Of a stretch of 43,181 nt of DNA, positions 16,333 through 36,250 are shown piece by piece. The DNA lies in assembly GCA_902779125.1 (NCBI GenBank), contig CACZAC010000031.1, positions 1 to 43,181 of the forward strand. The letters run 5' to 3'. Position 1 is the first letter of the stretch. Every line of letters begins with the position of its first letter. Under the pieces are notes generated by a model. The model did not search any database, had not been told where the DNA came from, and saw only the letters and a program-made list of their open reading frames with translations. A program made the translations under genes and the position numbers. The DNA is from an uncultured Bacteroidales bacterium (GTDB lineage: Bacteria > Bacteroidota > Bacteroidia > Bacteroidales > Muribaculaceae).

Positions 16333-16365
16333 AACTCCTAATTCCTAACTCCTAACTTCTAACTC
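16333..16365. repeat. Heptamer array overlapping the end of the HAD gene
   Basis: On the plus strand the words AACTCCT, AATTCCT, AACTCCT, AACTTCT, AACTC repeat every 7 nt. On the minus strand this encodes the last five residues (LEVRS) and the TAG stop of the HAD phosphatase and then continues into the spacer. The same words form one arm of the hairpin at 18925-18996. Confidence 0.8.
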
Positions 16366-17211
16366 ATGTTCAATCCAGCGGGGCACGCTGTCGTCGGTGT
16401 TGGGACCAATGACTTCGCTGGCTACGGCCTTGACTTCGGGAAAGGCGTTGTCCACAGCGACACTGTAGTCGGCAGCCTGCATCATGGCGATGTCGTTGCG
16501 GTTATCGCCGAAGACCACAATGCGCTCGGCACCCACTTTGCGGCCCAAACTGCGGATGGCGGCAGCCTTGCTGGTGCCGGCAGTGTAAATCTCCAGGTAA
16601 CCATCGCTTGGGTCAAAGTTGTCGTGATAGACCATCACCGAGCAGGTGGGTACGGTGGTGCGCAGGTCTTCGGCAATGGCCTTGAGCACCGCATACTTGT
16701 TGAGCGAAAAGATGAGCAGCGCCTCGTCGTCGCTGTGGCGGTAGTCGCTGTCGTTGAGGAAGAACTTTTTCAATGACAGATGCTGGCGTTGGGTGACAAA
16801 TCGTTCCTCCTGGGGCGAGAGCGGGCCGTAATGATGGGTGTGCAGCAGGCTGCTGCCGTGACGGCGGTAGATGAACGGATGAGCCTGATGGCGGTCAAAC
16901 ACGTCGGCCACAGCATTGACCGTCAAATCATCGATGCCACGTGTTTGCTCATAGCGGCCCGTGACGGGATTCCACATTGCCGAGCCGCCGATGACGATAA
17001 ACGGCAACGTGGCGTGAACTTCCTGCATGAGCGGCACCACTGTCGCCGGCGTGCGCGCCGTGGCAACGGTAAACAGTCCTCCCAGTTCCCCGATGATGCG
17101 GTTGAGCGTGGCGACAGTCTTGCAGGATAGTTGCGAATCCTCGTTCAGTAACGTCCCGTCCAGGTCGCTCACATAGAGCGTCTTGACCTTGTTATCCTTA
17201 TCTCCAATCAC
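16345..17211 (-). CDS. HAD-superfamily phosphatase (Cof-type)
   Basis: A 288-residue protein. The HAD motif I SDLDGTLL is near the N-terminus, the motif II region VATARTP follows, and GTSKAAAIRSLG (motif III lysine) plus VFGDNRNDIAMM (motif IV) are near residues 220-250. The large cap between motifs II and III is typical of the Cof group, which dephosphorylates sugar phosphates, nucleotides or cofactors such as pyridoxal phosphate. The substrate is not predictable. The start is GTG 17211; no ATG is available before motif I. The last few residues (LEVRS) and the stop codon come from a heptamer repeat array, so the native C-terminus may have been replaced. Confidence 0.88.
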   Translation of the reverse strand: MIGDKDNKVKTLYVSDLDGTLLNEDSQLSCKTVATLNRIIGELGGLFTVATARTPATVVPLMQEVHATLPFIVIGGSAMWNPVTGRYEQTRGIDDLTVNAVADVFDRHQAHPFIYRRHGSSLLHTHHYGPLSPQEERFVTQRQHLSLKKFFLNDSDYRHSDDEALLIFSLNKYAVLKAIAEDLRTTVPTCSVMVYHDNFDPSDGYLEIYTAGTSKAAAIRSLGRKVGAERIVVFGDNRNDIAMMQAADYSVAVDNAFPEVKAVASEVIGPNTDDSVPRWIEHELEVRS

Positions 17212-17216
17212 GGCTG

Positions 17217-17224
17217 CAAAAGTA
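17217..17224 (-). promoter_or_regulatory. -7 box of the HAD gene
   Basis: TACTTTTG on the minus strand, ending 5 bp before the GTG start, which would make the mRNA leaderless or nearly so. No TTTG at the expected spacing. Confidence 0.45.
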
Positions 17225-17281
17225 CTTCTTTTTGCCCTAATAGCTATGCTGGCGTGTTTATTTTCTTTTTTCAGTCAGTTT

Positions 17282-17316
17282 TTTGATGGCGGTTTGGATG
17301 ATTATGATTACATTTG
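17282..17316 (+). promoter_or_regulatory. Promoter of the superoxide dismutase gene
   Basis: TACATTTG (17309-17316) is a perfect -7 match, with TTTG at 17282-17285. The spacer is 23 bp, slightly longer than usual. The leader would be about 30 nt to the ATG at 17353. Confidence 0.55.
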
Positions 17317-17352
17317 CCTTTCTCAACTATAGTAACTGTTTAACAAAGAGAT

Positions 17353-17967
17353 ATGACTATGAAACAGACGATGCCAGTAGATGGAAAATTTGAGTTGATG
17401 GCTTTGCCTTACGCGCCCGATGCGTTGGAACCTGTCATCAGCGCCGAGACGTTGGGTTTTCACCATGGTAAGCACTTGTTGACCTATGTCAACAATCTGA
17501 ATGCTGCGCTACCCGGCAGCGGGCTTGAAGGCAAATCTCTGGAAGATGTTGTGCTGCAGGCCACGGGCGGTGTGCTCAACAATGCAGGTCAGATACTGAA
17601 CCACAACCTGTATTTCTCACAGTTTATGGCTCCCAAGGCCGACAATGCGCCAAGTGGACGCCTGGCCGAGGCTATCAATGCCGAGTTCGGCTCGTTTGAG
17701 GACTTTAAGGAGATTTTTGCCAAGGCTGGTGCCACGCTGTTCGGTTCGGGTTGGGCATGGCTCTCGGCCGACGCCGAAGGTAACTTGAAAATCACTCAGG
17801 AGCCCAATGCTTCCAATCCTATCCGTAATGGCCTGCGTCCGTTGATGACGATGGACGTGTGGGAGCATGCCTACTACCTCGACTACCAGAACCGCCGTCC
17901 TGACCACTTGGCTGCCCTGTGGCAGATTATCAATTGGGACGTAGTGGCAGCCCGCTACGAGGAATGA
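17353..17967 (+). CDS. sodB: Iron-type (possibly cambialistic) superoxide dismutase
   Basis: A 204-residue cytoplasmic enzyme that converts superoxide to oxygen and peroxide. The metal ligands are all present: His37 (FHHGKH), His84 (LNHNLYF), Asp168 and His172 (DVWEHAYYLDY). Gln80, four residues before the second ligand, occupies the position used by iron SODs; manganese forms have Gly there. Bacteroides SODs of this type can use either metal. A second in-frame ATG at 17359 is possible. The stop overlaps the next start (ATGA), so an exported protein of unknown function is made from the same message. An oxygen-defence gene fits a strict anaerobe. Confidence 0.95.
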   Translation: MTMKQTMPVDGKFELMALPYAPDALEPVISAETLGFHHGKHLLTYVNNLNAALPGSGLEGKSLEDVVLQATGGVLNNAGQILNHNLYFSQFMAPKADNAPSGRLAEAINAEFGSFEDFKEIFAKAGATLFGSGWAWLSADAEGNLKITQEPNASNPIRNGLRPLMTMDVWEHAYYLDYQNRRPDHLAALWQIINWDVVAARYEE

Positions 17968-18950
17968 GACGGGTTGCACTGGCTCTATTGGCAGCGCTGT
18001 GTCTCACTGGTGCGGCATGGGCTGGCGATAAGGTCAACGAGGGCTGGCAGCGGGCGATGCTCGCCGCCATTGACTCGTTCCCTGAGCGAGGCGGCTACTA
18101 CACGGGCGGCAAGCCCAATGAACTGTTTCCCAAGACGACATGGCGAGGACTGCATGATGCCTACCAGATGACCGCCCATGACGAGCGCCCGCGCTTTGAC
18201 CCGCAGCAGGCGCAGCCGTCGTTTTGCTCCAGCGCCACCTATTCGGTGATTATTAAGGCGTTGCTCATCTGGGACACGAAGCACAAAATCAAGCGTGAGG
18301 CGTGGATTAATATGAAGCCCCGCGTGGGCATTGCCGATGAATTCAACCCCGAGGGTATTGGACAAGACGATGGGGTAGGCTTTTGGGGCCGTGCCAACGC
18401 CAATGGTCCCGGCTTGGGCGTCCTGGTGCACGAACTGGATGCTGGCTACAGTTTTACCGCCTATCGTGGCGCCAAGAGCGAGCGAAACCGTGAGACACCT
18501 GATGAGCGTTACCTTACCGATGCCGAGTGGTGCGCCCTCGACGTGTGGCAGCGCGCCGTGGCGGGTGACCTGATGAAAATCTTCTGGAACCGCAACGAGA
18601 GCCGTGGCAGCGACAGCGGTGCCATCATCGGCTGCAATGACGACCGTGATGCCGACCAGGAGGCTGGCCATAGCGTCATCTTTATGGGCTGTGAGGGCGA
18701 CTCGGTGACCTATTGGTCATCCAACGGCCCTGGCAAGCATCCCGAGCAGATGGGCTACAGCGTGGGTCGTTGCCACAAGAACGATATCCAGCGCGTAGTG
18801 TTTACCCGCATCACACGCCCCGAACGCTTCAACAACGCACGAAAAATGGCGCCCACCGACGTGAACGCCTATCTCAGTGACCTCAACGGCAAGCGCCACA
18901 GCACCACCGCCGAAATGCTACTTCAGTTAGGAATTAGAAGTGAGAAGTGA
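17964..18950 (+). CDS. Exported protein of unknown function, papain/NlpC-like Cys-His pattern
   Basis: A 328-residue protein starting at ATG 17964, which overlaps the SOD stop by 4 bp. It has a signal peptide (LALLAALCLTGAAWAG). The mature part contains a Ser-Phe-Cys-Ser-Ser segment (QPSFCSSATYSVI) at the start of a likely helix and AGHSVIFMG on a following strand. A Cys then His-strand order is what papain-fold NlpC/P60 or CHAP-type hydrolases show, so a cell-wall or amide hydrolase is possible, but this is inference and I do not recognise the family. The last residues (about LGIRSEK) and the stop are encoded by a heptamer repeat element, so the end of the gene has been remodelled. Confidence 0.65.
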   Translation: MRRVALALLAALCLTGAAWAGDKVNEGWQRAMLAAIDSFPERGGYYTGGKPNELFPKTTWRGLHDAYQMTAHDERPRFDPQQAQPSFCSSATYSVIIKALLIWDTKHKIKREAWINMKPRVGIADEFNPEGIGQDDGVGFWGRANANGPGLGVLVHELDAGYSFTAYRGAKSERNRETPDERYLTDAEWCALDVWQRAVAGDLMKIFWNRNESRGSDSGAIIGCNDDRDADQEAGHSVIFMGCEGDSVTYWSSNGPGKHPEQMGYSVGRCHKNDIQRVVFTRITRPERFNNARKMAPTDVNAYLSDLNGKRHSTTAEMLLQLGIRSEK

Positions 18951-18996
18951 GAAGTGAGAAGTGAGGATGCCAACTCCTAACTCCTAATTCCTAACT
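18925..18996. repeat. Heptamer hairpin element at the end of the exported-protein gene
   Basis: The left arm repeats GAAGTGA four times after TTAGGAATTA; the core is GGATGCC; the right arm repeats AACTCCT, AACTCCT, AATTCCT, AACT. The outer parts of the arms pair (AGTTAGGAATTAG). The left arm provides the last codons and the stop codon (18948-18950) of the preceding gene. Confidence 0.8.
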
Positions 18997-19002
18997 AAAT
19001 AA

Positions 19003-19788
19003 CTATTCATTGATGTGGACTTTGCCGCTGCCGGCGATGTCCTCATCGTGGGTACCGATTTTGCCGCGCAGGGTCACATCGCCCGAGCCTGCGATTTCGG
19101 TTTTCACATGGTCCACATTGATGTTGCTGAGGACGATGTCACCCGAGCCGGCAATTTCGTTCTTTACGTTCTTGCAGGTCAATCCTGCAATGTCGATATT
19201 GCCCGAGCCTGCGATTTCGTTCCTGACTTCATTGGCTTGGAGCATGCCGATGGTGATATTGCCCGAGCCTGCAATCTCGCATTTGACATCCTGTGCCGTC
19301 ATTTTGGCGAGTGTCACGCGTCCCGAACCCGCTACCTCGATATAAATGTCATTGACATTCAGTGCTTGAGGTGTCGTCACCATTCCCGAACCCGCGATTT
19401 CGATTCCTTTGACCATCGGACAGGTGACGAATATCTGCATTCCATTAAATATGTTGCCGTCCTCTTGCTTGCGTTGGTCGATGTAGAGGCTACCGTCCTT
19501 GACATAGATGGTAATCTTGCTGAGCTGCTCGGTTGTGCCCTCGACGCGCACCGTGTTGGAATCGCCTTGTTCTAGGATGACGTTGAAGGGGCCGGCAACG
19601 TCCACCTTGTCAAATGGAGACATGGCGGTTGCCTTGCCCACTTGGTGCACCTGAGTGGGCGTGTCGTTGGTGTGGCTGCCTAAGGACCAATCCTTGTCGC
19701 CGATTTTCACATGCATGCATGACGTCATCGTCATTGCTACCAGAGCCACGAGGCTCAACATCATCAATTTCTTCATTTCTGTTTTCAT
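19003..19788 (-). CDS. DUF2807 (GIN domain) lipoprotein
   Basis: A 261-residue protein (start at 19788, or ATG 19776) with signal sequence and lipobox MTMTSC. After FDKVDVAGPFNVILEQG, which is characteristic of the DUF2807/GIN head domain, there is a ladder of seven (E/D)(I/V)AGSG motifs spaced 19-21 residues apart, as expected for one rung each of a right-handed beta-helix. Family members are surface or periplasmic proteins of Bacteroidota, described only as putative adhesin heads. No ligand can be named. The rung regularity is also visible in the DNA as repeated GCCCGAGCC words. Confidence 0.9.
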   Translation of the reverse strand: MKTEMKKLMMLSLVALVAMTMTSCMHVKIGDKDWSLGSHTNDTPTQVHQVGKATAMSPFDKVDVAGPFNVILEQGDSNTVRVEGTTEQLSKITIYVKDGSLYIDQRKQEDGNIFNGMQIFVTCPMVKGIEIAGSGMVTTPQALNVNDIYIEVAGSGRVTLAKMTAQDVKCEIAGSGNITIGMLQANEVRNEIAGSGNIDIAGLTCKNVKNEIAGSGDIVLSNINVDHVKTEIAGSGDVTLRGKIGTHDEDIAGSGKVHINE

Positions 19789-19858
19789 TTTCCTCTTGTT
19801 TTAATGTTGTTCTTTACCCTATAGACGCACGAGCAGGTCAAAAAGTTTCAGAAATATC

Positions 19859-19890
19859 AAAAAAAATCACCCGTGAGGGTGATTTTTTTT
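19859..19890 (-). terminator. Intrinsic terminator of the dipeptidase gene
   Basis: An ATCACCC/GGGTGAT stem with a 4-nt loop is flanked on both sides by A/T runs, giving eight T residues after the stem on the minus strand. It begins at the stop codon of the dipeptidase gene and may also work in the other direction. Confidence 0.8.
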
Positions 19891-20656
19891 ATTCGGAGAG
19901 CTTGCGCACTGGGAAATTGAAGTAGGTACTGGGGAACGGCTCGTTCTTCAATGTGAAGTGCCACCACTCGTTGTCCAGGGGCTTGAAGCCGTGGCGCATC
20001 ATTGCTGAGCGCAGCACCATGCGGTTGTAGAACTGCTCGCTGGTGATGCCGCCCTCCACGGGTCGGTACTCGAGCGTCTCGGGGTCACCGCAGTAATCAG
20101 GATGGCTCTCGGATCCGAACCAGTCGAAGGTGCCGCCCATGTCCACATCCTTGCCCAGTTTCATATCAAAGAGGGTCAAATCGACCGTCGAGCCACGCGA
20201 GTGGCCGCTCTTAGTGGCGACATACTCCTCATCAAAGACTCGTTTCTTGGTCAAGTAGGGATAGAAGTAGGCTTTGGTAACGGTGTCATTCAAATTCTGC
20301 GCCCACCGCATGAAGTGATCCACGGCGCGCTGAGGACGGTAAGCGTCATAGATTTTCAGGCAATAGCCATGCTGCTTGAGGTCGTCGCTCACGGCACGCA
20401 GGCTGTCGGCGGCTTGGCGCGTCAACAATGCCACGGGCTGCTCATATCCGTCCATGCGCGCGCCCACAAAGTTGTAGGTGCCGTAATAGCGTATGTCCAG
20501 CATCGCGTCGGGCACGACATCGGTGATTGTGACAAACTGGCTCGAGTCCAACGTCGGGTCCAGCACCTGGGCTACATTCTGGGCACTCTTACAACCAGTT
20601 AACATGCCAATGGTCATCAACAGACCGGTGGCGAGAAATAGTCTATATCTTTTCAT
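19889..20656 (-). CDS. D-alanyl-D-alanine dipeptidase (VanX/DdpX family) lipoprotein
   Basis: A 255-residue protein with lipobox IGMLTGC near residue 22, so the mature enzyme is membrane-anchored outside the cytoplasm. The VanX-type motifs are complete: DIRYYGTYNFVG, the substrate-binding YDAYRPQRA, the zinc site SGHSRGSTVDLTL and EWWHF with the catalytic glutamate and last zinc ligand. The family cleaves D-Ala-D-Ala. No ligase or sensor genes of a glycopeptide-resistance cluster are nearby, so a role in wall-fragment recycling or nutrition is more likely than resistance. CAGGAG lies 3 bp before the ATG, an unusually good ribosome binding site for this genome. Confidence 0.92.
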   Translation of the reverse strand: MKRYRLFLATGLLMTIGMLTGCKSAQNVAQVLDPTLDSSQFVTITDVVPDAMLDIRYYGTYNFVGARMDGYEQPVALLTRQAADSLRAVSDDLKQHGYCLKIYDAYRPQRAVDHFMRWAQNLNDTVTKAYFYPYLTKKRVFDEEYVATKSGHSRGSTVDLTLFDMKLGKDVDMGGTFDWFGSESHPDYCGDPETLEYRPVEGGITSEQFYNRMVLRSAMMRHGFKPLDNEWWHFTLKNEPFPSTYFNFPVRKLSE

Positions 20657-20684
20657 AAACTCCTGTATTAATGCAATAACACCG

Positions 20685-20692
20685 CAAAATTA
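20685..20692 (-). promoter_or_regulatory. -7 box of the dipeptidase gene
   Basis: TAATTTTG on the minus strand, 28 bp before the ATG at 20656. No TTTG at the standard spacing. Confidence 0.5.
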
Positions 20693-20713
20693 AGGAATTA
20701 TGGCAAAATATTG

Positions 20714-20782
20714 AACATGAATTTCCATGAAATCCCACGAATGCCCAAAAATCTTATTTATTCATGACCATTTATGGACATT
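20714..20782. repeat. 10-nt-period imperfect hairpin array
   Basis: CATGAATTTC, CATGAAATCC, CACGAATGCC on the left and ATTCATGACC, ATTTATGGAC on the right repeat every 10 nt and are partly complementary. It occupies the gap between the dipeptidase promoter and the end of the lysine operon. Confidence 0.55.
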
Positions 20783-20783
20783 A

Positions 20784-20814
20784 TTGTATTTGTTGTACTT
20801 ATTGTTTTCCTATT
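20784..20814. repeat. 9-nt-period array, downstream copy flanking the lysine operon
   Basis: Words TTGTATTTG, TTGTACTTA, TTGTTTTCC repeat every 9 nt. A copy with 25 of 26 identical leading bases lies in the same orientation at 36188-36218, on the other side of the operon. Confidence 0.75.
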
Positions 20815-20815
20815 A

Positions 20816-20855
20816 GAGAAAAAGAGGGCGGGTGCCGTTGTGTGGCGCCCGCCCT
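20816..20855 (-). terminator. Terminator of the lysine fermentation operon
   Basis: On the minus strand a 12-bp stem AGGGCGGGCGCC (one G-U pair) with a 7-nt loop is followed by CTTTTTCTC, 24 bp after the etfA stop. Strong intrinsic terminator. Confidence 0.88.
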
Positions 20856-20878
20856 GATTTGTTGATGGGTGTTGTGGT

Positions 20879-21895
20879 TTACTTCTCGAGTCCCTTCTTG
20901 ATGCGCTCGGTCAACATGGGTACAATCTTGTGGAGGTCGCCAACGATGCCCAGGTCAGCCACGCTGAAGATGGGGGCGAACTTGTCCTTGTTGATGGCGA
21001 TGATGAAGTCGCTCTCTTCCATACCGGCGAGGTGCTGGATGGCACCACTGATACCGCAAGCCATGTAGAGGCCCGGACGGACGGTCTTACCTGTCTGACC
21101 GACCTGTACCTCGTGGGGCATCACGCCGTTATCGACCATAGCACGCGACGAAGCCACCTGTCCGCCGAGGACGTCGGCGAGGGCCTGCAGCTTGTCGAAA
21201 CCTTCCTTGTCATGGACGCCGCGGCCACCGCTGACGAGAATCTTTGCCTCGCTGATGTCGGCAACAGTCTTGTCGGCCTTGATGGTCTTGACGAGTTTTA
21301 CCTTGAACTTGCTGGCGTCGAACTTGGGAGCGAACTCGGTTACCACGCCCTGACGGCCTTCCTGGCGCTGCATCTTCTGCATCACACCGGGACGTACGGT
21401 TGACATCTGCGGACGGTTGTTGGGGCAGATGATGGTTGCCATCAGGTTGCCGCCGAATGCGGGACGCGTCATGCGGAATTCAGGCTCGTTGTCCTTATCG
21501 GGCTCGATGTCGAGCTTGGTGCAGTCGGCAGTCAGACCCGTCTTGAGGCGGGAAGCGATGCGGGGAGCCAGGTCGCGACCGATGGTGGTGGCACCATAGA
21601 GCACGATGCTGGGCTTGCGCTCCAGAATAATCTGGCCAACGGCCTGTGAGTACTGTTCACTGAGGAAGTCCTTCAACTCGGGGGCATCGACCACGATAAC
21701 CTCGTCGGCACCGAACTCGATGAGCATCTGTGCCTTGTCCTTGATACCCTCGCCCAGGAGCATGGCTACCACCTTCTCGCCGAGGGCGTCGGCCAAGTCG
21801 CGGGCCTTACCTAAAAGTTCGAGTGCAACGGGCTGGATGACTCCTTCGCGCTGCTCAGCAAAAACGAATACGTTTTTATAATCTTTCTTATCCAT
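20879..21895 (-). CDS. etfA: Electron transfer flavoprotein alpha subunit
   Basis: A 338-residue protein and the last gene of the operon. The C-terminal FAD domain shows the EtfA signature: SGGRGVHDKEGF, RAMVDNGVMPHEVQVGQTGKTV in two overlapping motifs, then YMACGISGAIQHLAGM and INKDKFAPIF. It forms a heterodimer with EtfB and exchanges electrons with the acyl-CoA dehydrogenase Bcd encoded upstream. In clostridia such Bcd/Etf complexes couple crotonyl-CoA reduction by NADH to ferredoxin reduction; the same coupling here is an inference from the gene arrangement. It is separated from etfB by a heptamer hairpin element. Confidence 0.96.
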   Translation of the reverse strand: MDKKDYKNVFVFAEQREGVIQPVALELLGKARDLADALGEKVVAMLLGEGIKDKAQMLIEFGADEVIVVDAPELKDFLSEQYSQAVGQIILERKPSIVLYGATTIGRDLAPRIASRLKTGLTADCTKLDIEPDKDNEPEFRMTRPAFGGNLMATIICPNNRPQMSTVRPGVMQKMQRQEGRQGVVTEFAPKFDASKFKVKLVKTIKADKTVADISEAKILVSGGRGVHDKEGFDKLQALADVLGGQVASSRAMVDNGVMPHEVQVGQTGKTVRPGLYMACGISGAIQHLAGMEESDFIIAINKDKFAPIFSVADLGIVGDLHKIVPMLTERIKKGLEK

Positions 21896-21902
21896 AATAT
21901 TC

Positions 21903-21997
21903 AGTTTTCTTTAGTTTCTAGTCCCTGGTTTCTAGTCCCTAGTCAGCATCCGCCAGTAGCTGACAACTAACAACTAAGGACTAGGGACTAGAAACTA
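21903..21997. repeat. Heptamer hairpin element between etfB and etfA
   Basis: The left arm is made of TAGTCCC, TGGTTTC, TAGTCCC, TAGT words (7-nt period); the core is GCATCCGCC; the right arm has AACTAAC, AACTAAG, GACTAGG, GACTAGA words. The outer AGTTTCTAGTCCCTAGT-type sequence pairs with its complement. It fills the gap from 3 bp after the etfB stop to 8 bp before the etfA start. Confidence 0.85.
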
Positions 21998-22000
21998 CTT

Positions 22001-22783: not shown

Positions 22784-22788
22784 AATTG

Positions 22789-22870
22789 AGTTTTCAGTTT
22801 TTAGTTTTCAGTTTTCAGTTCAGTGCCGGCGAATGCTGCTGACAACTGACAACTGGCTACTGACAACTAG
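22789..22870. repeat. Heptamer hairpin element between bcd and etfB
   Basis: The left arm repeats AGTTTTC/AGTTTTT/AGTTTTC/AGTTTTC every 7 nt; the core is GCCGGCGAATGCTGC; the right arm has TGACAAC, TGACAAC, TGGCTAC, TGACAAC words. It fits between the bcd stop (22873) and the etfB start (22783) with only 2 and 5 bp left. Confidence 0.85.
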
Positions 22871-22872
22871 AT

Positions 22873-24012: not shown

Positions 24013-24023
24013 ATTCTCTTTTT

Positions 24024-24098
24024 AGTTTTCAGTTTTCAGTTGTCAGTTTTCAGTCGATGCGGATGCCGCTGACAACTGAAAACTGACAACTGACGACT
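24024..24098. repeat. Heptamer hairpin element between hbd and bcd
   Basis: The left arm is AGTTTTC, AGTTTTC, AGTTGTC, AGTTTTC, AGT; the core is GCGGATGCCGC; the right arm is TGACAAC, TGAAAAC, TGACAAC, TGACGAC. Arms are almost fully complementary. It fills the stop-to-start gap (24012 to 24105) with 6 to 11 bp to spare on each side. Confidence 0.88.
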
Positions 24099-24104
24099 TG
24101 TTGA

Positions 24105-24941
24105 TTAATACTTGTAGAAGCCTTCACCGGTCTTGCGGCCGAGGAGACCAGCGCGAACCATCTTGCGCAGCAGCGGGTGAGGACGGTACTTGGGATCGCC
24201 AAACTCGTTGTAGAGCACCTCCATGATGGCGAGGTTCACATCGTTACCGATGAGGTCGGCGAGTGCGAGGGGTCCCATGGGATGGTTGGCACCCAGCATC
24301 ATGCACTTGTCGATGTCCTCGGCGCTGGCAATGCCGTCGGCGAGGATACCTACTGCCTCGTTAATCATCGGGATGAGAATGCGGTTAACGACAAAACCGG
24401 GAGCCTCGTTAACGGGCACGGGGGTCTTGCCGATTTCGGTCGTCAGGTCAACGATGCACTTGGCGGTCTCCTCGCTGGTGAGCTGGCCCTTGATGACCTC
24501 GACGAGCGCCATGCGGTCGGCGGGGTTGAAGAAGTGGCAGCCAATGAACTGAGCGGGACGGCTGGTGCAAGCGGCAATCTCGGTAATCGAGAGCGACGAT
24601 GAGTTGGTGGCGAAGATGGTCTCGGGCTTGCAGATTTTGTCAAGCTCCATGAAGACGTCCTTCTTCAACTGCATGTTCTCGACAGCAGCCTCGATAACGA
24701 GGTCGGCATCAGCGAAGTCGGCATAATCGGTCGTCGTGGTGATGTTTGCCAGGATGGCCTTCATGGCATCCTCGGTGATTTTACCCTTCTCGACGAGTTT
24801 GTTGTAACCCTTGGAGATTGAAGCCATGGCTTTGTCCAGGCTCTCCTGGGTGCGGCTCTTCATGACCACGGGCATCTTGGCGGCAAAAGCCTTGACAATA
24901 CCCTTAGCCATCGTACCTGTTCCAATAACACAAATTTTCAT
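24105..24941 (-). CDS. hbd: 3-hydroxybutyryl-CoA dehydrogenase
   Basis: A 278-residue NAD(P)-dependent enzyme. The N-terminal dinucleotide motif reads [10 protein letters not shown] where most relatives have GAGTMGxGI, a small departure. [13 protein letters not shown], the catalytic histidine in [16 protein letters not shown], and [19 protein letters not shown] are all present. It interconverts acetoacetyl-CoA and 3-hydroxybutyryl-CoA. Its presence with crt gives the cell a reductive route from acetoacetyl-CoA, the product of the CoA transferase step, to crotonyl-CoA. Confidence 0.95.
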
Positions 24942-24982
24942 AATCTGATTTTTATTGATTGTTAATGATTTAATGTTAATTC

Positions 24983-26517: not shown

Positions 26518-26568
26518 AATCACTAATCTCTAATCACTAATCCTCAAGCTGCGGCAAGCCGCTACTTG
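26518..26568. repeat. Heptamer array with GC hairpin between kamE and atoA
   Basis: AATCACT, AATCTCT, AATCACT, AATCCTC words repeat every 7 nt and are followed by CAAG-CTGCGG-CAAG-CCGCTA-CTTG, a small GC hairpin reminiscent of the core of the other elements. Here only one word arm is evident, so it looks like a half element. Confidence 0.65.
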
Positions 26569-30290: not shown

Positions 30291-30292
30291 TG

Positions 30293-31306
30293 TTATTGTT
30301 TGTTTTTTATCAGGTCATACACGGGAAGCCCGATGGCTTCGCTGAGTTTGGCGCACAGGGTGTCCGAGTCAAGGACATAGCCGCTGGGCGACGTGGGGTT
30401 GACGGTGACGGCGATGAGTTTGCTCTTTTGCAGCACCCTGATGCGTCCACCCTTCTTGATGAACAGCCTGAACTGCTGCGGAGTGACGAAAATCTTGGTG
30501 AAATCCCTCACCACCAGTTCCACCTGCTTGAGGCTCTTGTTTTTCCTCACCTTCTCGAGGAAGCCGTCAACCAGTGCTCCTGCCACATACAGCGTCTCAC
30601 AGCCGTCCATTCCCTGGAAGTGTATATCCTTGGACAAGGAGGTCATCGTGTCCAAAGAGTGCAGTTCGCCGTCCTTGTCAATGAACCACAGCCCCTTATC
30701 GAGCGGCATGAGCCGCTGGAGATTGCGCTCATTGGTCAAGTCCAGGTTGACGAGGTCCACCACATGAGCGGTCTTGCTGACTAGTGTACTCATACTGGCC
30801 GAATAGGCGGCCCCGGTAGCCAGAATCATCGACTGGCTCACGGCAGGCGATGCCGAACTCATGCGTGACAGGGCGCCGTCGATAATGACCAGGTCGATGC
30901 CGAAACGCTGCTTCATCTCGTTCATCCAGCGCCTGAGGCTGCTGGCCGACGAGGGACCCGACAGGAGGATTTTGCCTCCCGTGAGTGCTTTGGCGGTTAC
31001 TACCCGTCCCAATGAGGTGCTCTCGTCGCTCACATCGATGAGTTCCGAGACCAGCCGCCGCTGGCGATAATGGGCCTCGCTGGTGCCGAAGTACATCCCC
31101 TCGCGGAGGTGGATTTCGGGCTTTTGGGTACGTGTCACCTGGTCCACAGTCTCTCCATCAATGCCGATTGATGTGACGGCGATGCGCTTGGTCTGGACGG
31201 GCAATCGTTCAAGCACATACTTGAGGCACTCGGTCTTGCCTGTATTCTTCTCCAGTCCCACGATAGACAGGCTATCGTATCGCAATATGTCATTGATGAA
31301 GGGCAC
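30293..31306 (-). CDS. kamB: P-loop protein of the lysine pathway
   Basis: A 337-residue protein with GLEKNTGKT (residues 17-25), a P-loop, then TSIGIDGETVDQV. LVIIDGALSRMSSASP in the middle could be the Walker B region. The rest is alpha/beta with VELVVRDFTKIFVTP. The protein matches KamB of lysine fermentation clusters; it sits immediately before kamC and kamD, which suggests a role in cofactor handling for the aminomutase. The start is GTG 31306; no ATG in frame lies before the P-loop. Upstream is a stable hairpin in the kamA-kamB gap. Confidence 0.88.
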   Translation of the reverse strand: MPFINDILRYDSLSIVGLEKNTGKTECLKYVLERLPVQTKRIAVTSIGIDGETVDQVTRTQKPEIHLREGMYFGTSEAHYRQRRLVSELIDVSDESTSLGRVVTAKALTGGKILLSGPSSASSLRRWMNEMKQRFGIDLVIIDGALSRMSSASPAVSQSMILATGAAYSASMSTLVSKTAHVVDLVNLDLTNERNLQRLMPLDKGLWFIDKDGELHSLDTMTSLSKDIHFQGMDGCETLYVAGALVDGFLEKVRKNKSLKQVELVVRDFTKIFVTPQQFRLFIKKGGRIRVLQKSKLIAVTVNPTSPSGYVLDSDTLCAKLSEAIGLPVYDLIKNKQ

Positions 31307-31335
31307 TCCCTGTTAAACGCAATGATTTCCGCTGG

Positions 31336-31372
31336 TGGCTGTGAAGGCGCCTTCAAGCGCCTTCACAGGCCA
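31336..31372. repeat. Inverted repeat in the kamA-kamB gap
   Basis: CTGTGAAGGCGC (31339-31350) and its exact complement (31357-31368) are separated by 6 nt, with extra TGG/CCA pairs outside. It lies between the kamA stop and the kamB GTG, so it would form a strong hairpin in the operon mRNA. No T run, hence not a typical terminator. Confidence 0.7.
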
Positions 31373-31388
31373 ACGGATGCAGTCTCAA

Positions 31389-32672
31389 TTACTTCTTGTC
31401 GCGGTTCTCGTTACGCTCGTGACGCTTCAGCGCCCTGGGCTCGATGTTCATGCGCTCACCCTCGAGCAGCGAGATAACACCGTCCACGGCCTTGTCGGCA
31501 GCCACCTGCTCCTTGGCACGGGCGGCCTGGCACTCGGGACAATTGCACTCGCTGTGGTAATCGGTGGGCTCGGTATAGGTGGTGATGACGCCCTCAAAGT
31601 TGCGCAATACCACCCTGCCGGGAGCCTGGGAGATGATGTACTGAGGCATAACGGGCGTCTTGCCGCCGCCACCGGGAGCGTCCACCACGAAGGTGGGCAC
31701 GCAGTAGCCGCTGGTGTGGCCGCGCAGGCCCTCGATAATCTCGATACCCTTGCTGACGGGGGTGCGGAAGTGCTCCAGACCCATCGACAGGTCACACTGA
31801 TAGATGTAGTAGGGACGTACACGAATCTTGACGATTTCATGCACGAGCTTCTTCATCACGTGGACGCAGTCGTTCACGCCGCGCAGCAGCACGCTCTGGT
31901 TGCCCAGGGGGATACCGGCGTTGGCGAGCATCTCGCAAGCACGGCTCGACTCGGGAGTCACCTCGTTGGGGTGGTTGAAGTGGGTATTGATCCAGATGGG
32001 ATGATACTTCTTCAACATGTCACACAACTCGGGCGTGATGCGCTGCGGGCAAACCACGGGGGTGCGGGTGCCCAGGCGGACGATTTCCACATGAGGAATC
32101 TTGCGGAGTTCCGAGATGATGTATTCCAGTCGCTTGTCGCTCACCATCAGGGCGTCGCCACCCGAGAGGAGGACGTCGCGCACGGTGGGGGTGTTGCGGA
32201 TATACTCAAGCGCCTTCTCGATGCGGTCCAGACCGCACTCGTTATCGGTTTGGCCGGCAAAACGGCGACGGGTGCAGTGACGGCAGTACATCGAGCACAT
32301 GTCGGTGATGAGCAGCAGCACGCGGTCGGGATAACGGTGGGTCAAGCCGGGCGTGGGAGAGTCCTCATCCTCATGCAGGGGGTCGAGCAGGTCGGCAGCG
32401 GCCTGATGGGTCTCGGCGCCTGTGGGGATGCACTGGCGACGGATGGGGTCATGCGGGTCATCGGGATTGATGAGGCTCAGATAGTAGGGCGTGATAGCCA
32501 TGCGCAGGGTCTTGAGGGTCTGCTTGACGCCCTCTTCCTCCTCAGCACTCAGGATCACATACTTCTTGAGTTCCTCAAGGGTCTCGATGCGGTTTTTCAC
32601 CTGCCATTTCCAGTCATTCCACTGCTCGTCGGTAACGTCAGGAAATAATTGTTTTCTTCTTGATTCTACCAT
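31389..32672 (-). CDS. kamA: Lysine 2,3-aminomutase
   Basis: A 427-residue radical-SAM, PLP-dependent enzyme that converts L-lysine to L-beta-lysine, the entry step of the pathway. The cluster motif CSMYCRHC gives Cys126, Cys130 and Cys133. The PLP lysine is in DAPGGGGKTPVMPQY. The Cys cluster HSECNCPECQAAR near the C-terminus is typical of the clostridial-type enzyme, where cysteines bind zinc between subunits. Length and motifs are normal. Confidence 0.97.
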   Translation of the reverse strand: MVESRRKQLFPDVTDEQWNDWKWQVKNRIETLEELKKYVILSAEEEEGVKQTLKTLRMAITPYYLSLINPDDPHDPIRRQCIPTGAETHQAAADLLDPLHEDEDSPTPGLTHRYPDRVLLLITDMCSMYCRHCTRRRFAGQTDNECGLDRIEKALEYIRNTPTVRDVLLSGGDALMVSDKRLEYIISELRKIPHVEIVRLGTRTPVVCPQRITPELCDMLKKYHPIWINTHFNHPNEVTPESSRACEMLANAGIPLGNQSVLLRGVNDCVHVMKKLVHEIVKIRVRPYYIYQCDLSMGLEHFRTPVSKGIEIIEGLRGHTSGYCVPTFVVDAPGGGGKTPVMPQYIISQAPGRVVLRNFEGVITTYTEPTDYHSECNCPECQAARAKEQVAADKAVDGVISLLEGERMNIEPRALKRHERNENRDKK

Positions 32673-32697
32673 AATGAATTATGATTGATTATGCTGG

Positions 32698-32724
32698 CTG
32701 GGGCACGACAGCGTCGCACCCCAG
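32698..32724. repeat. Inverted repeat in the kdd-kamA gap
   Basis: CTGGGG-CA-CGAC, loop AGC, GTCG-CA-CCCCAG: a hairpin of 10 pairs with one internal loop, located in the 69-bp gap between kdd and kamA. No word repeats are visible. Confidence 0.55.
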
Positions 32725-32741
32725 TGCATCAGATTTCGTGA

Positions 32742-33815
32742 TTAAGCGTACAGTTCCTCGAAGATCTTGCGCAGCTCGGGGCATTCGCGCAGCTCCTGCA
32801 AGGTGAAGTCGGCGTGGCCCTTGGTGTAGCCGTTACCGATAATCATGTTCACGTCAGCACCGATACCCTCGGCACCCAGGGCAGCCTTGGTGAAGCTGGT
32901 GGCCATCGAGAAGAAGTAAACGATACCGTCATCCTTGGTGCACAGCACAGCGGTCATCTCGCAATCAGGCACGTTCACGCAGTTGATGGTGGTGTCGGCC
33001 ATCTTACCGTCGGTCAGCTTGTAAACCAGCTCGTAAACCTCAACGGGAGTCATGCCGGCAACGCTCTCGACAACGTCACAGAAGCCGAGGTCCTTGATGC
33101 GCTGGGTCGATTTGGGGCTGTTGGCGAGGCCGATAACCTTACCGGTAACGCCTACGCGCTTCTTAGCCTCGTAGCAGCAGAGCATACCGCTCTTGCCACC
33201 GGCACCCAGGATAACAACATTCTGGCCATACTGGCACAGCTTGGCGGTCTGAGCGGGAGCACCAGCGACGTCGAGGGCGCTCAGAGCGAGCTTCTCGGGC
33301 ATGTCATCGGGAATCTTGGCATAGATACCGCTCTCGAACAGGATAGCCTTACCCTTGATGTCCACCTGGTCAACATCGGCGCGGATTTCGAGAATCTCGT
33401 CGATGCGCAGCGGGGTCAGTGACAGCGAAACGAGGGTAGCGATGCGGTCGCCTTCCTTCAGGTCGATTTTGCCCTTGAGGGCATCACCGATCTTCTCTAC
33501 CTTACCCAGGAGCATACCGCCCGAACCGGTGCGACGGTTGCGGTGCTTGCCCTGCAACTCGACGTTCAGGAGCATCTCCTTCTTGATTTCCTCCATCACC
33601 TCGGCCTCGTTGTTGGGGTCCTTGGCCTGCTGCTTAGCATAGTTGTGGATGTCGGTGAACGAAGCGGAGTCGATATTCAGGGTCTGTACATCGATAAGGA
33701 TCTCGTTGTCATAGATCTCGTCCATGTTGTTGTCCAACTTGTTGGCGGGCTGGGGAAGAATGCCCTTGGGCTCGATTACTCGGTGCGTACCGAATCTGTT
33801 TCCGTGTTTCTGCAT
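32742..33815 (-). CDS. kdd: L-erythro-3,5-diaminohexanoate dehydrogenase
   Basis: A 357-residue protein that oxidatively deaminates 3,5-diaminohexanoate to 3-keto-5-aminohexanoate using NAD(P). The start NRFGTHRVIEPKGILPQPA and the region SASFTDIHN are characteristic of Kdd. The dinucleotide motif GAGGKSG lies at residues 204-210 in VVILGAGGKSGML. The gene lies between kce and kamA, its normal company in lysine clusters. It follows a 117-bp gap carrying word repeats. Confidence 0.95.
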   Translation of the reverse strand: MQKHGNRFGTHRVIEPKGILPQPANKLDNNMDEIYDNEILIDVQTLNIDSASFTDIHNYAKQQAKDPNNEAEVMEEIKKEMLLNVELQGKHRNRRTGSGGMLLGKVEKIGDALKGKIDLKEGDRIATLVSLSLTPLRIDEILEIRADVDQVDIKGKAILFESGIYAKIPDDMPEKLALSALDVAGAPAQTAKLCQYGQNVVILGAGGKSGMLCCYEAKKRVGVTGKVIGLANSPKSTQRIKDLGFCDVVESVAGMTPVEVYELVYKLTDGKMADTTINCVNVPDCEMTAVLCTKDDGIVYFFSMATSFTKAALGAEGIGADVNMIIGNGYTKGHADFTLQELRECPELRKIFEELYA

Positions 33816-33875
33816 TGTTTTAATTTGGTTTAAGTGTTAAACGATTATTGTTAATTTTTGGTTTCTTTGTTTTTT

Positions 33876-33933
33876 AAAGGGCCTTTAAGGTCTTTAAGGT
33901 CCCTAAAAGCTAATAGCTAACAGCTAAAAGCTT
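33876..33933. repeat. Word-repeat array between kce and kdd
   Basis: A 9-nt-period part (TTTAAGGTC, TTTAAGGTC, CCTAAAAG) is followed by a 7-nt-period part (AGCTAAT, AGCTAAC, AGCTAAA, AGCTTAG). The second part runs into the kce stop codon (TAA at 33934-33932 on the minus strand). Unlike its neighbours it has no clear GC core. Confidence 0.75.
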
Positions 33934-34765
33934 AGTTCCTCTTGGGCAAGCCCAGGATTTCGCGGGCCTCGTCGCTGGTGGCGATGGGGCGGCCCAGTTC
34001 CTTGGCGATGCGTACCACCTTCTCGACGAGTTCGCCGTTGCTCTTGGCGAGTACGCCCTTAGAGAGGTAGAGGTTGTCCTCAAAGCCCACACGCACGTTA
34101 CCGCCCATGGCGATAGCGGCAGCAGCCATCGGGAAGGCGTGACGGCCAACGCCGGTCACGGTCCATGTGGAGCCAGCGGGGATGCCGTTCACGAGCCAGC
34201 ACAGGTTAGCAACGGTAGCGGGGGTGCAACCGGGCACGCCCAGCACGAAGTTGAACTGCATGGGGGCTCCGGGCACTTCACCCTTGCGGGCCATGTTCAG
34301 GATGGTGTCGAGGTGACCCATCTCGAAGCACTCGTATTCGGGCTTGATGCCACGCTCAATCATGCGCTTGCCGAAGGCACGCATGGTGGGCATCGTGTTG
34401 TCAAAGATTTCGTCGCCGAAGTTGCAGGTACCGCAGTCGAGCGTTGCCATCTCGGGCAGCGGGGTCGTGTCGGTGGACTGCAGGCGCTCGTCGGGCGTCA
34501 TGCCCACTGCACCGCCAGTTGACGGGATGAGGATGACGTTGGGGCACACCTTGAGGATTGCCTCTTCACACTCCTGGAAGCGGGCGCGGTCCTGGGTGGG
34601 CGTGCCGTCGTCCCAGCGCACGTGCAGGTGGACGATAGCGGCACCGGCATCAACAGCCGACTTGGCTTCACGAACGATTTCTTCTACGGTATAGGGTACG
34701 TTGGGATTCTGCTCCTTGGTAACCTCGGCGCCGCAGATGGCGGCAGTGATAATCAGTTTATCCAT
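33932..34765 (-). CDS. kce: 3-keto-5-aminohexanoate cleavage enzyme
   Basis: A 277-residue zinc enzyme of the BKACE (DUF849) family. It condenses 3-keto-5-aminohexanoate with acetyl-CoA and releases 3-aminobutyryl-CoA and acetoacetate. Glu14, His46 and His48 (VHLHVRWDDG) and Glu229-Asp230 (VGFEDN) match the zinc and catalytic positions of Kce. The gene lies between kal and kdd. Its stop codon abuts a 7-nt-period array and its start is preceded by a heptamer hairpin element. Confidence 0.96.
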   Translation of the reverse strand: MDKLIITAAICGAEVTKEQNPNVPYTVEEIVREAKSAVDAGAAIVHLHVRWDDGTPTQDRARFQECEEAILKVCPNVILIPSTGGAVGMTPDERLQSTDTTPLPEMATLDCGTCNFGDEIFDNTMPTMRAFGKRMIERGIKPEYECFEMGHLDTILNMARKGEVPGAPMQFNFVLGVPGCTPATVANLCWLVNGIPAGSTWTVTGVGRHAFPMAAAAIAMGGNVRVGFEDNLYLSKGVLAKSNGELVEKVVRIAKELGRPIATSDEAREILGLPKRN

Positions 34766-34769
34766 TTTT

Positions 34770-34859
34770 AGTTTTTCGGTTTTCAGTTGGCAGTTTTCAG
34801 TTTTCAGTTGTGGCCTATTGCGTTAGCGCTGACAACTGAAAACTGAGAGCTGCAAAACT
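34770..34859. repeat. Heptamer hairpin element between kal and kce
   Basis: The left arm has AGTTTTT, GGTTTTC, AGTTGGC, AGTTTTC, AGTTTTC, AGTTGT words; the core GGCCTATTGCGTTAGCGC differs from the other copies; the right arm has TGACAAC, TGAAAAC, TGAGAGC and TGCAAAAC. It fills the kal-kce gap with 3 to 4 bp left on each side. Confidence 0.83.
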
Positions 34860-34862
34860 ATT

Positions 34863-35249
34863 TTATTTGCGTTGGCAATCTTTGGGAGTTACACAGGTGC
34901 CAGAGGCACGGCAAACCACAACGGGCTCCTCGAGGATGTCGGCAGCCGATGCACTGATGTCAGGACGGGCCTGAGCCACCTTGCGGGCCTCAAATACCAT
35001 GTGACGAGAGGTGTTGCCCTCGCGGTCAATCCAACCCTCGGCCTCGATAAAGTCACCGGCATAAACGGGTGCCAGGAACTCGATGTTGTCATAGGCGCAG
35101 AACAAGCCTTCATCGCCGTCGCGCATAATCAACAATTCTGTTGCTACATCACCAAACAGGTGTACCATGTGTGCTCCATCAACCAGGTTGCCGCCGTAGT
35201 GGGCATCCTTTGCGCTCATGCGCAGTCTGATCATTGTCTTGTATTCCAT
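34863..35249 (-). CDS. kal: 3-aminobutyryl-CoA ammonia-lyase
   Basis: A 128-residue protein of the hot-dog fold type. [19 protein letters not shown] at the N-terminus and [17 protein letters not shown] are the hallmarks of Kal. It eliminates ammonia from 3-aminobutyryl-CoA to give crotonyl-CoA, joining lysine breakdown to butyrate formation. Both borders of the gene are heptamer hairpin elements. Confidence 0.93.
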
Positions 35250-35258
35250 GTGTTTTTG

Positions 35259-35336
35259 AGTTTTCAGTTGTCAGTTTTCAGTTGTCAGTTGATTGCGGAT
35301 GCCGCTGAAAACTGACAACTGAAAAACTGTAAAACT
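35259..35336. repeat. Heptamer hairpin element between atoD and kal
   Basis: Left arm AGTTTTC, AGTTGTC, AGTTTTC, AGTTGTC, AGTTG; core GCGGATGCCGC; right arm TGAAAAC, TGACAAC, TGAAAAAC. Arms are highly complementary. It ends 2 bp from the atoD stop and begins 10 bp from the kal start. Close sister of the element at 24024-24098, 11 kb away. Confidence 0.88.
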
Positions 35337-35338
35337 AT

Positions 35339-35989
35339 TTATTTTTCAACATAGATGCCGTCAACATAGATACCCGAAGCATGAACGTGCTCGGGAGCGA
35401 TTTCGCCCACGGGAACCAGCTTCTCGGCCTCAACGACTACATAGTCGGCAGCGGTGGCCATCAGCGGGTTGAAGTTGTTGGTGGTGCCCAGGAATACCAT
35501 GTTACCAAACTCGTCAACGATGTTGGCGCGCAGGAAGGCGATGTCGGCACGCAGGGGCTTCTCCAGCAAGAACTCCTTGCCGTCAACCTTGATGATTTCC
35601 TTGCCGTCGGCCATGATGGTGCCCAGACCAGTGGGGGTCAGCACGCCGCCCAGACCTGCACCTGCCGCACGGATGCGCTCTGCCAGGGTGCCCTGGGGAA
35701 CGTATTCCACGATGAGCGTGCCCTCGTTCTTCTGCAACGCGGTCTGCTTGTTGGTACCCGTGTGGGATACGATAGCCTTCTTAACCTGGTGATTGCTCAC
35801 CAGCTTGCCGTGAGCCACCTCGTCATAGGCGGTGTCGTTAGCAATGATAGTGAGGTCCTTAACACCCTTTTCAACAATGGCGTCAATGATTTGGGTGGCA
35901 CTGCCGTTACCCAAGAAACCGCCAAACATAATAGTCATGCCGTCCTGTACTTTTTCAACGGCTTGTTCCAATGTGATTTGTTTGTTCAT
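35339..35989 (-). CDS. atoD: CoA-transferase subunit A (butyryl-CoA:acetoacetate type), first gene of the operon
   Basis: A 216-residue protein with MFGGFLGNGSATQIIDAI, the glycine-rich N-terminal loop of class I CoA-transferase alpha subunits, and later AGAGLGGVLTPTGLGT and YVVVEAEKLVPVG. It should pair with the product of atoA (25776-26435). It is the first gene after the promoter box, with a leader of about 40 nt, so expression of the whole 15-gene operon begins here. Confidence 0.92.
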   Translation of the reverse strand: MNKQITLEQAVEKVQDGMTIMFGGFLGNGSATQIIDAIVEKGVKDLTIIANDTAYDEVAHGKLVSNHQVKKAIVSHTGTNKQTALQKNEGTLIVEYVPQGTLAERIRAAGAGLGGVLTPTGLGTIMADGKEIIKVDGKEFLLEKPLRADIAFLRANIVDEFGNMVFLGTTNNFNPLMATAADYVVVEAEKLVPVGEIAPEHVHASGIYVDGIYVEK

Positions 35990-36035
35990 AATGCTTATGT
36001 TTTGGAATGTATTGGTTTATGTCATAATAGGCTGC

Positions 36036-36043
36036 AAATATAG
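36036..36043 (-). promoter_or_regulatory. -7 box of the lysine fermentation operon
   Basis: TATATTTG on the minus strand, 46 bp upstream of atoD. The -33 region lacks a clear TTTG, which may mean that an activator is needed. The leader is too short for a riboswitch. Confidence 0.6.
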
Positions 36044-36151
36044 AAAAAAAACGGCAATGTTATGCCCCTTTCAGCGCTTTTTTTTAATGATGTATATATA
36101 ACCACAACGATAACAGCACTTTGCCTAGTTGGCATTCGCACTGATAGAAGG

Positions 36152-36213
36152 AAGACAATAAGTACAATAATTACAATGGCATCCGCTTTGTATTTGTTGT
36201 ATTTATTGTTTTC
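36152..36213. repeat. 9-nt-period hairpin element upstream of the lysine operon
   Basis: Left arm ACAATAAGT, ACAATAATT, ACAAT; core GGCATCCGC; right arm TTTGTATTTG, TTGTATTTA, TTGTTTT. Same architecture and core as the heptamer elements but with a 9-nt period. The right arm is nearly identical to the array at 20784-20814. Confidence 0.8.
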
Positions 36214-36222
36214 TATTTTAAA

Positions 36223-36250
36223 TCTTCGCGTCTTCGCGCCTTAGCGTGAG
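36223..36250. repeat. Octamer array TCTTCGCG
   Basis: TCTTCGCG, TCTTCGCG, CCTTAGCG, TGAG repeat every 8 nt in the gap after the NhaC gene. Similar CGCGAAG-type words are widespread in Bacteroidota and other bacterial intergenic regions, from general knowledge. Confidence 0.65.

Follow-up and report, generated by a model that had tools for sequence, protein, structure and literature searches.

Two lines of earlier work bear on repeats of the kind that we describe. The first concerns the intervening sequences (IVSs) of 23S rRNA, which have terminal inverted repeats and are associated with the S23p or IVP protein family (PF05635/TIGR02436). In the case of Coxiella, tandem heptamers (2-3 between strains) lie upstream of the S23p open reading frame (ORF) and RNase III cleaves at the first repeat (PMC4990558), and in bacteria of the candidate phyla radiation (CPR) IVP genes are found in insertions of both 16S and 23S rRNA (PMC11270868). 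The second concerns tandem heptamers as such, which have been reported from Beggiatoaceae, cyanobacteria and Bacteroidetes (PMC4679880) and were termed unexplained in a global survey (PMC6344855); the GGGAATC arrays of Xanthomonas mostly count 4 units, lie at a mean distance of 28 nt from the closest 5' ORF and form 70 inverted pairs in X. campestris pv. campestris (Xcc), inverted pairs being a feature of Xanthomonas and few in Nostoc (PMC4692102). Here we analyse a stretch of 43,181 nt (CACZAC010000031.1, hereafter the window), i.e. contig C31 of the 3.35-Mb draft genome of an uncultured Bacteroidales bacterium (Muribaculaceae), the near relatives of which are Bacteroidales metagenome assemblies that are commonly of rumen origin. 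Its intergenic regions contain hairpins built from tandem 7-nt words, and we conclude that these are probably gene-less copies, comparable to miniature inverted-repeat transposable elements (MITEs), of a selfish element that encodes an IVP.

Arrays were called where the sequence matched itself at a given lag in at least 18 of 21 nt. At lag 7 this yielded nine regions in the window (16329-16365, 18927-18969, 21963-21991, 22786-22821, 24018-24055, 24069-24098, 33903-33932, 34784-34811 and 35254-35292); lags 4-6, 8-13 and 15 yielded none, the harmonic lag 14 yielded five, and Markov shuffles of the window (10 per lag) a mean of 0.0. A 400-kb sample of the genome contained 24 arrays at lag 7, none at lag 8, three at lag 9 and two at lag 12, and one Markov shuffle of that sample had none at lag 7. 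Genome-wide, AGTTKTCAGTTKTCAGTT (AGTTKTC family, at most one mismatch) has 72 + 69 = 141 matches and its reversed control 0, and this single genome carries several distinct word families. The initial annotation, which was made from the sequence alone, had described a fixed step shared by copies with differing words, and in this it was right, the 7-nt periodicity being far beyond that of shuffled DNA. The hairpin architecture that it described stands for five clear cases (18922-18999, 21912-21997, 24019-24098, 34780-34856 and 35261-35325) and a weaker one (22785-22871), with RNA fold z-scores over the six of -9.0, -7.4, -6.4, -3.1, -6.0 and -3.1, but a mirrored 7-nt hairpin is absent at 16329 and 36223 (one arm each) and at 26518 (one heptamer arm). 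Similarly, the proposed core of the GCGGATGCC type has exact copies at 24024 and 35259 and takes the form GGCATCCGC at 36178, but is approximate elsewhere.

The gene that accompanies such arrays is visible in the relative L069, where the 468-nt gap between hbd and acd consists of an AGACAGA-type array, an ORF and a TCTGTCT-type array, the ORF being a match to PF05635 (23S_rRNA_IVP, E 4e-36). The draft genome has five PF05635 matches: all three above the cut-off lie within mirrored 7-nt arrays (AGTTTAG, AGTTAGG and AGTTAAT), and the two weak ones are longer proteins with 9-nt arrays. Within the genus, PF05635 is found in 91 of 101 genomes, in 81 of them above its cut-off. We analysed 93 genus loci, a set that comprises the 3 from the draft genome, 30 best matches and 60 chosen by us and is thus no random draw. 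The period is the same on both sides in 65 ((7,7) in 60, (8,8) in 5) and a 7/8-nt array is present on at least one side in 86, with six loci having none on either side and one reading (12,6). Among control ORFs of the draft genome, 4/289 are (7,7) and 53/289 have a 7-nt array to the left, to the right or on both sides, the latter because gene-less copies are common. After removal of duplicates (82 loci), arrays occurred in 108/164 segments adjacent to the IVP gene versus 11/492 segments 600-1335 nt away. The mirror score IR20 was at least 17 of 20 in 85/93 loci, with a null maximum of 16 in 100 random pairs. A codirectional ORF ends near the left array in 77/82 loci, at a median of 3 nt ahead of it, and a start codon lies near the right array in 53/82, at a median of 8 nt past it. 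The full elements contain an IVP gene inside terminal inverted repeats. The window hairpins have the inverted repeats and hold no IVP gene, their arms being too close together, and the PF05635 search of the genome gave no match on C31.

The words themselves vary with the protein. In 87 loci (from the genus, the phylum and plasmids) there are 7-nt arrays to the left and to the right of the gene; when the right word is reverse-complemented, it agrees with the left word at 6.0 of 7 positions, as compared to 4.06 for random pairing. Between loci, words agree at about 4.1-4.5 positions when the proteins are less than 60% identical, at 5.1 for 60-70%, 5.6 for 70-80% and 6.7 above 80% (Mantel r 0.29; 0/2000 permutations), which implies that the arms of one element agree better (6.0) than do the arrays of proteins that are 70-80% identical (5.6). 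At one orthologous site, with upstream flanks 85-92% and downstream flanks 76-87% identical and IVPs 67-76% identical, the word is AGTTTTA in L136, L142, L143, L155 and L157 and AGTTTTC in L150 and L153 (in L153 the left array has the opposite sense). Both arms have thus switched word jointly, which favours active upkeep, although independent insertion at a favoured site could also have produced the two-arm change.

Word length varies at the level of the subfamily. The long protein of the draft genome combines TIGR04258 (4helix_suffix) with TIGR02436 and has relatives in 46/61 genomes searched. At 31 such loci (30 returned by the search plus L134) the arrays have a 9-nt step in 22 cases, 10-nt in 6, 7-nt in 2 and none in 1, i.e. 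9/10-nt in 28/31, and by an equal measure the standard IVP loci have 7/8-nt arrays in 83/93 and 9/10-nt arrays in 1/93. Word length thus follows subfamily (7/8 nt for the standard IVP, 9/10 nt for 4helix_suffix), which accounts for the mixture of 7-, 8-, 9- and 10-nt steps listed by the initial annotation.

The presence of an IVP is also reflected in the number of gene-less copies. Nine of the 101 genomes have an at least 80% identical IVP of the GATTAG clade, and their GATTAGN matches number 38, 7, 23, 18, 24, 54, 77, 40 and 52; in the other 92 the median is 0, with 0 in 60 (P 1.3e-7), and AGTTNTC, as an unrelated-word control, is no different in GATTAG carriers (P 0.25). TTTAGGY has 23, 76, 28, 233 and 56 matches in its known carriers and 0 in 70/96 others (P 9e-6), and the AGTTNTC carriers have 50, 214, 50, 110 and 93 (P 1.2e-4). 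These counts are of overlapping pattern matches, not arrays; GATTAGN reads identically in reverse and so provides no independent reversed control, and the carrier lists for AGTTNTC and TTTAGGY were drawn from the 93-locus sample, not from every IVP per genome. The arms of the element itself contribute little, for instance 4 of 38 GATTAGN matches in G078. The ten PF05635-less genomes, several of which are incomplete assemblies, have no exact match to AGTTNTCx3, GATTAGNx3 or TTTAGGYx3 (Fisher P 0.0012, 0.005 and 0.029). A gene that tracks copy number, for which a search had been suggested beforehand, was thereby found in the IVP gene of the same word. A corresponding test of the 9-nt word was significant but partly circular, because the 9-nt counts of G007, G019, G021 and G054 sit at or beside the gene itself; its pattern moreover matches both strands at once, and the test was discarded as support.

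These relations bear directly on polymerase slippage with hairpin-templated correction, in which IVP genes would exploit or enter pre-existing arrays. Heptamers dominate bacterial tandem repeats and slippage has been proposed for them (Mrazek 2007, cited in PMC4679880), arrays differ in length, reaching 130 nt, and gene-less arrays are common in the draft genome, as the 53/289 control ORFs show. Nevertheless, slippage leaves it unexplained that the period tracks the protein subfamily, that the word tracks the protein clade, that three 7-nt words have no exact match in the ten PF05635-less genomes, and that miniatures of a few types have inner ends in common with full elements. We therefore consider it quite improbable, and hairpin-templated slippage, which the initial annotation had named as an example, is not supported as the sole explanation: step length and word go with the PF05635/TIGR02436 protein between the arms.

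Comparison of orthologous gaps revealed gain, loss and replacement of words among relatives, a turnover that exceeds point mutation alone and that the initial annotation had asked to be checked. The gap between etfB and etfA measures 14-16 nt in 13/18 relatives (L055, L056, L059-L069) but reaches 85-129 nt in L051-L054 and L058; the hairpin at 21897-21997 of the window is an inserted stretch with respect to the short gap of L055/L056. The gap between acd and etfB measures 18-21 nt in 12/18 relatives (L055, L056, L060-L069), is also short in L057, and is long (91-176 nt) in L051-L054, L058 and L059. In the hbd-acd gap the word is AGTTNTC in the window and L059, AGTCCTT-type in L051, L052 and L057, AGTTTTA in L053 and L054, AGTTTAG in L058 and AGTTAGG in L067. 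The insertion at 33865-33931 is missing in L052 and L059, and that at 26492-26570 in L052, L053, L054, L057 and L059. The latter has a 9-11-nt flank on both sides (one mismatch) that is present as a single copy in the insertion-free relatives; it looked convincing as a target-site duplication, a candidate that we rejected on finding none above permutation in 82 full elements. Long gaps are not all of the heptamer type: the etfB-etfA gap of L053 contains a CAACAA/GTTGTT triplet-type inverted repeat and no heptamers. Upstream of the aminomutase-subunit gene, L055 has long direct repeats of TTCTTGAATACTATAA, and the window gap there is 33 nt.

The same gaps are relevant to the idea that the arrays are host operators, i.e. 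sites of translational or mRNA-stability control that are read by an IVP-type regulator. The arrays are indeed placed in the gaps of operons, close to stop codons and start codons, and a ring that reads repeated words would resemble TRAP, a comparable ring protein. A translational role has moreover been proposed for the TAACTGA repeats (MacGregor 2015, PMC4679880). Against this, presence in orthologous gaps varies among close relatives, with very short element-free gaps, several word families occur per genome and a gene stands between the arrays in most loci, and we regard this explanation as improbable. We also considered that the word might serve as a stop-codon cassette by supplying a stop in three frames; AGGGAAG and CACCTTC carry no stop, which rules this out.

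The reading as a selfish element is directly supported by the association of gene and arrays, the covariation of word and protein, the word length of the subfamilies, the tracking of copy number, the gain and loss in gaps and the joint change of arms. Its full form would consist of a word array, an inner end, the IVP gene, a second inner end and the complementary array, usually squeezed in between the stop codon of one gene and the start codon of the following one. The miniatures look like internal deletions of this form, because a few types of them have inner ends in common with full elements. In AGTTTTA-type full elements the right inner end has CAGGC in 5/6 and CAGGCGA in 3/6, which recurs in the miniature hairpins of L053 and L054. 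The full elements L148 and L166 have the window core GCGGATGCC at their right inner end, and L300 has it in the form GGCATCCGC on the left. It also occurs in L153, in a hairpin beside the gene, and in four more matches unrelated to arrays. The sharing of inner ends was judged by eye and concerns the AGTTTTA and AGTCCCT types only.

Array length and protein structure suggest how words might be read. The 7-nt arrays peak at 30-33 nt (57/184), which equals four steps and a further 2-5 nt and gives five occurrences of an anchor (often AG or GA), and 8-nt arrays cluster at 34-36 nt (8/21). The relatives of known structure, PDB entries 2gsc and 2rld, each contain five chains; 2gsc is the IVP Xcc0516 of Xanthomonas campestris, and the title of its paper, as given in a reference line of PMC10053308, mentions five four-helix bundles as the quaternary structure. 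Six polar residues (Q39, R42, S46, N50, E53 and E76 in L202 numbering) are at least 99% conserved in 153 proteins and agree with the RxxxSxxxNxxE part of a published motif (PMC3936711). The IVP may thus assemble into a ring of five subunits, each taking one array word, the period being the distance from subunit to subunit along the nucleic acid, and five anchors corresponding to four steps plus a few bases. The target could be a strand of an RNA stem or single-stranded DNA, and miniature copies would spread through an IVP of the same word acting in trans. In transcripts the arms would form a long stem that RNase III could cut, by analogy with 23S rRNA IVSs; such cutting would make insertions in operons tolerable, and with arrays located beside stop and start codons it would do little harm.

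How copies are made is addressed by a variant of the selfish-element reading, in which the IVP has as its partner a reverse transcriptase whose gene lies elsewhere, and DNA copies are made from the hairpin RNA. Avd is essential for retrohoming of diversity-generating retroelements (DGRs) and Xcc0516 (2GSC) is homologous to the Avd of BPP-1 (PMC10053308); the NCBIfam Avd model matches an IVP with E 2.6e-7, which is below the model cut-off. No reverse transcriptase is tied to the elements, no search for one having been made, and we judge this variant unlikely, if less so than the explanations by operators or slippage. Hardly credible is that these are elements of the repetitive extragenic palindromic (REP/REPIN) type moved by a Y1 transposase (RAYT). 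Like those, they are intergenic, palindromic and present in high copy, and the draft genome has two Y1_Tnp genes. Neither of these is flanked by heptamers, each having distinct inverted repeats of its own, and the words do not form one conserved palindrome; we therefore reject RAYT for the draft genome, to which the Y1_Tnp search was confined. One of the two, L331 on contig C40, is a RAYT-like gene flanked by palindromes GGGACAAAAGAACCGTCCCTTTGTCCC that are unrelated to the heptamers.

Several observations count against a selfish element with IVP-specific words. We know of no catalytic domain in PF05635. No transposase or reverse transcriptase was tied to element copying, reverse transcriptases not having been searched for, and full elements show no consistent target-site duplication (82 loci; common-substring 4.82 vs 4.82 permuted). 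A cognate IVP was not found for the words at 36155-36209 and 36223-36247. The relation of word to protein is not one-to-one, in that the divergent IVP clades L150/153, L161/165 and L175 all have AGTTNTC; a strict rule of one word for one protein is thereby ruled out. Ten genomes have at least 7 GATTAGN matches without an at least 80% identical IVP. The 9-nt word occurs in the PF05635-less genomes G013 (3x), G061 (2x) and G100 (6x), where the 4helix_suffix query was negative, and G013 has 1 AGTTKTC match with one mismatch allowed. The five-anchor peak is broad, with many longer arrays, and 9-10-nt arrays have no clear peak. Finally, 30 loci from across the phylum are weaker, with same-period arrays on both sides in only 3/30.

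In the window, most arrays are located between the genes of a catabolic stretch (Table 1). Nine of ten scanned proteins were assigned: two electron transfer flavoprotein (ETF) subunits, an acyl-CoA dehydrogenase, a 3-hydroxyacyl-CoA dehydrogenase, an enoyl-CoA hydratase, two CoA-transferase proteins, an aminomutase subunit and a BKACE protein. Outside the arrays, 41818-42335 holds a 78-nt tandem repeat of about 4.7 copies with 156-/234-nt multiples, which overlaps a minus-strand ORF.

Table 1. Repeat features of the window and related words elsewhere
Positions	Feature	Remarks
16329-16365	single-arm 7-nt array, AACTCCT (= AGTTAGG family)	word family also flanks IVP L132 of the draft genome
18922-18999	7-nt hairpin, arms AGTTAGG/AAGTGAG and AACTCCT	IVPs L218 and L220 are flanked by arrays that mix AGTTAGG and AGTGAGG
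20781-20805	9-nt array TTATTGTAC/TTGTATTTG	outside the list of the initial annotation
21897-21997	7-nt hairpin AGTCCCT/AGTTTCT inserted between etfA and etfB	arms 21912-21943 and 21966-21997; word also flanks IVPs L140, L144, L148 and L166
22785-22871	7-nt hairpin AGTTTTC/AGTTGTC, etfB to acyl-CoA dehydrogenase gene	
24018-24098	7-nt hairpin AGTTTTC/AGTTGTC	core GCGGATGCCGC at 24059-24069; RNA fold -41.5 kcal/mol, z -9.0; word also flanks IVPs L150 and L153
26492-26570	insertion with GATTAGT (AATCACT) 7-nt array at 26518-26545	array under the lag-7 cut-off, yet found by Tandem Repeats Finder (TRF) as AATCACT, 3.6 copies, 88%
33865-33931	insertion: 9-nt array TTTAAGGTC (33883-33901) beside 7-nt AGCTANT array (33903-33932)	9-nt word similar to the one at the 4helix_suffix gene in the draft genome (L135/L301)
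34753-34859	7-nt hairpin AGTTTTC	
35254-35336	7-nt hairpin AGTTTTC/AGTTGTC	core GCGGATGCCGC
36155-36209	9-nt hairpin ACAATAAGT / TTGTATTTA	around GGCATCCGC (36178-36186)
36223-36247	8-nt single-arm array TCTTCGCG	

Beyond the genus, PF05635 is present in 157 of the 198 Bacteroidota genomes drawn. Of the 30 phylum-wide loci, 19 have a 7/8-nt array on one or both sides and 16 a mirror score of at least 17, the arrays being more degenerate; the mean best score is 12.6 at lag 7, 11.1 at lag 8 and 12.1 at lag 14, versus 9.0-10.0 at other lags. PF05635 also matches 34 plasmid records, mostly of cyanobacteria. In the 15 of these that were examined (14 cyanobacterial, 1 Azospirillum) the periods are (7,7) in 10 and (8,8) in 1, i.e. 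the same on both sides in 11/15, with arrays on one side only in 3 and none in L269. Most plasmid loci that were read thus have mirrored heptamer arrays around a PF05635-family gene, contrary to the earlier statement that cyanobacterial heptamers are not mirrored. The Azospirillum locus L270 lies within large-subunit (LSU) rRNA (Rfam RF02541); its right heptamer array is above the cut-off and its left one below, with a mirror score of 18. Three plasmid IVP genes are located inside cas operons, namely L257 (Picosynechococcus), between cas10 and a cmr3-family gene with an 8-nt array above the cut-off on one side, and L261 (Pseudanabaena) and L262 (Anabaena), between cas6 and cas4 with 7-nt arrays on both sides; those of L261 are very long, AAAAGCT-type to the left of the gene and AAAAGCC-type to the right. 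Eighteen IVP genes have been listed in cas loci and IVP has been counted as cas-associated (PMC3936711); the arrays that surround the genes of L257, L261 and L262 suggest that these are element insertions rather than Cas functions.

Taken more broadly, these data raise the possibility, which we put forward tentatively and at somewhat less than even chance, of a widespread selfish class with a protein-word code, in which a five-subunit ring of four-helix bundles, with no recognised transposase, reads, maintains and spreads arrays of 7-10-nt words, and which would explain most of the unexplained bacterial heptamers (the short tandemly repeated repetitive (STRR) sequences, TAACTGA and GGGAATC) as well as the 23S rRNA IVSs. 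If the code is true, the word of each array is set by the sequence of its own IVP; if subunit spacing sets word length, it would represent a new mode of nucleic-acid reading, akin to that of TRAP but on the hairpin arms of a selfish element. The link itself gives the heptamer repeats a maker or user, and gives PF05635, a family named from 23S rRNA, a likely role.

The elements can be compared to several known systems. With REPIN/RAYT and MITEs they have in common that short non-autonomous hairpins have an autonomous relative, and they differ in that no shared transposase was found, no fixed sequence is present and target-site duplication is not general. The Avd proteins of DGRs belong to a homologous four-helix-bundle family (PMC10053308); DGRs are defined by template and variable repeats and a reverse transcriptase. 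The STRR, TAACTGA and GGGAATC repeats of cyanobacteria, Beggiatoaceae and Xanthomonas share the 7-nt step and the intergenic position. The present arrays are tandem intergenic heptamers as STRR sequences are, a likeness of step and position. In the accessible parts of the published accounts those repeats are tied to no gene, unlike the arrays described here. A general link between IVPs and heptamers was not found in the accessible parts of the open journal literature covered, the nearest being the Coxiella heptamers beside one S23p gene. The closest relative is the 23S rRNA IVS, which has the protein family and the terminal inverted repeats in common with the present elements and of which the Azospirillum locus, in LSU rRNA and with arms of 7-nt words, is an example. 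Unlike the 23S IVSs, the elements are found between protein genes genome-wide (the window copies and most genus loci adjoin protein-coding ORFs and are not in 23S rRNA); gene-less copies and different words are both numerous, and versions with a 9/10-nt step go with one protein subfamily.

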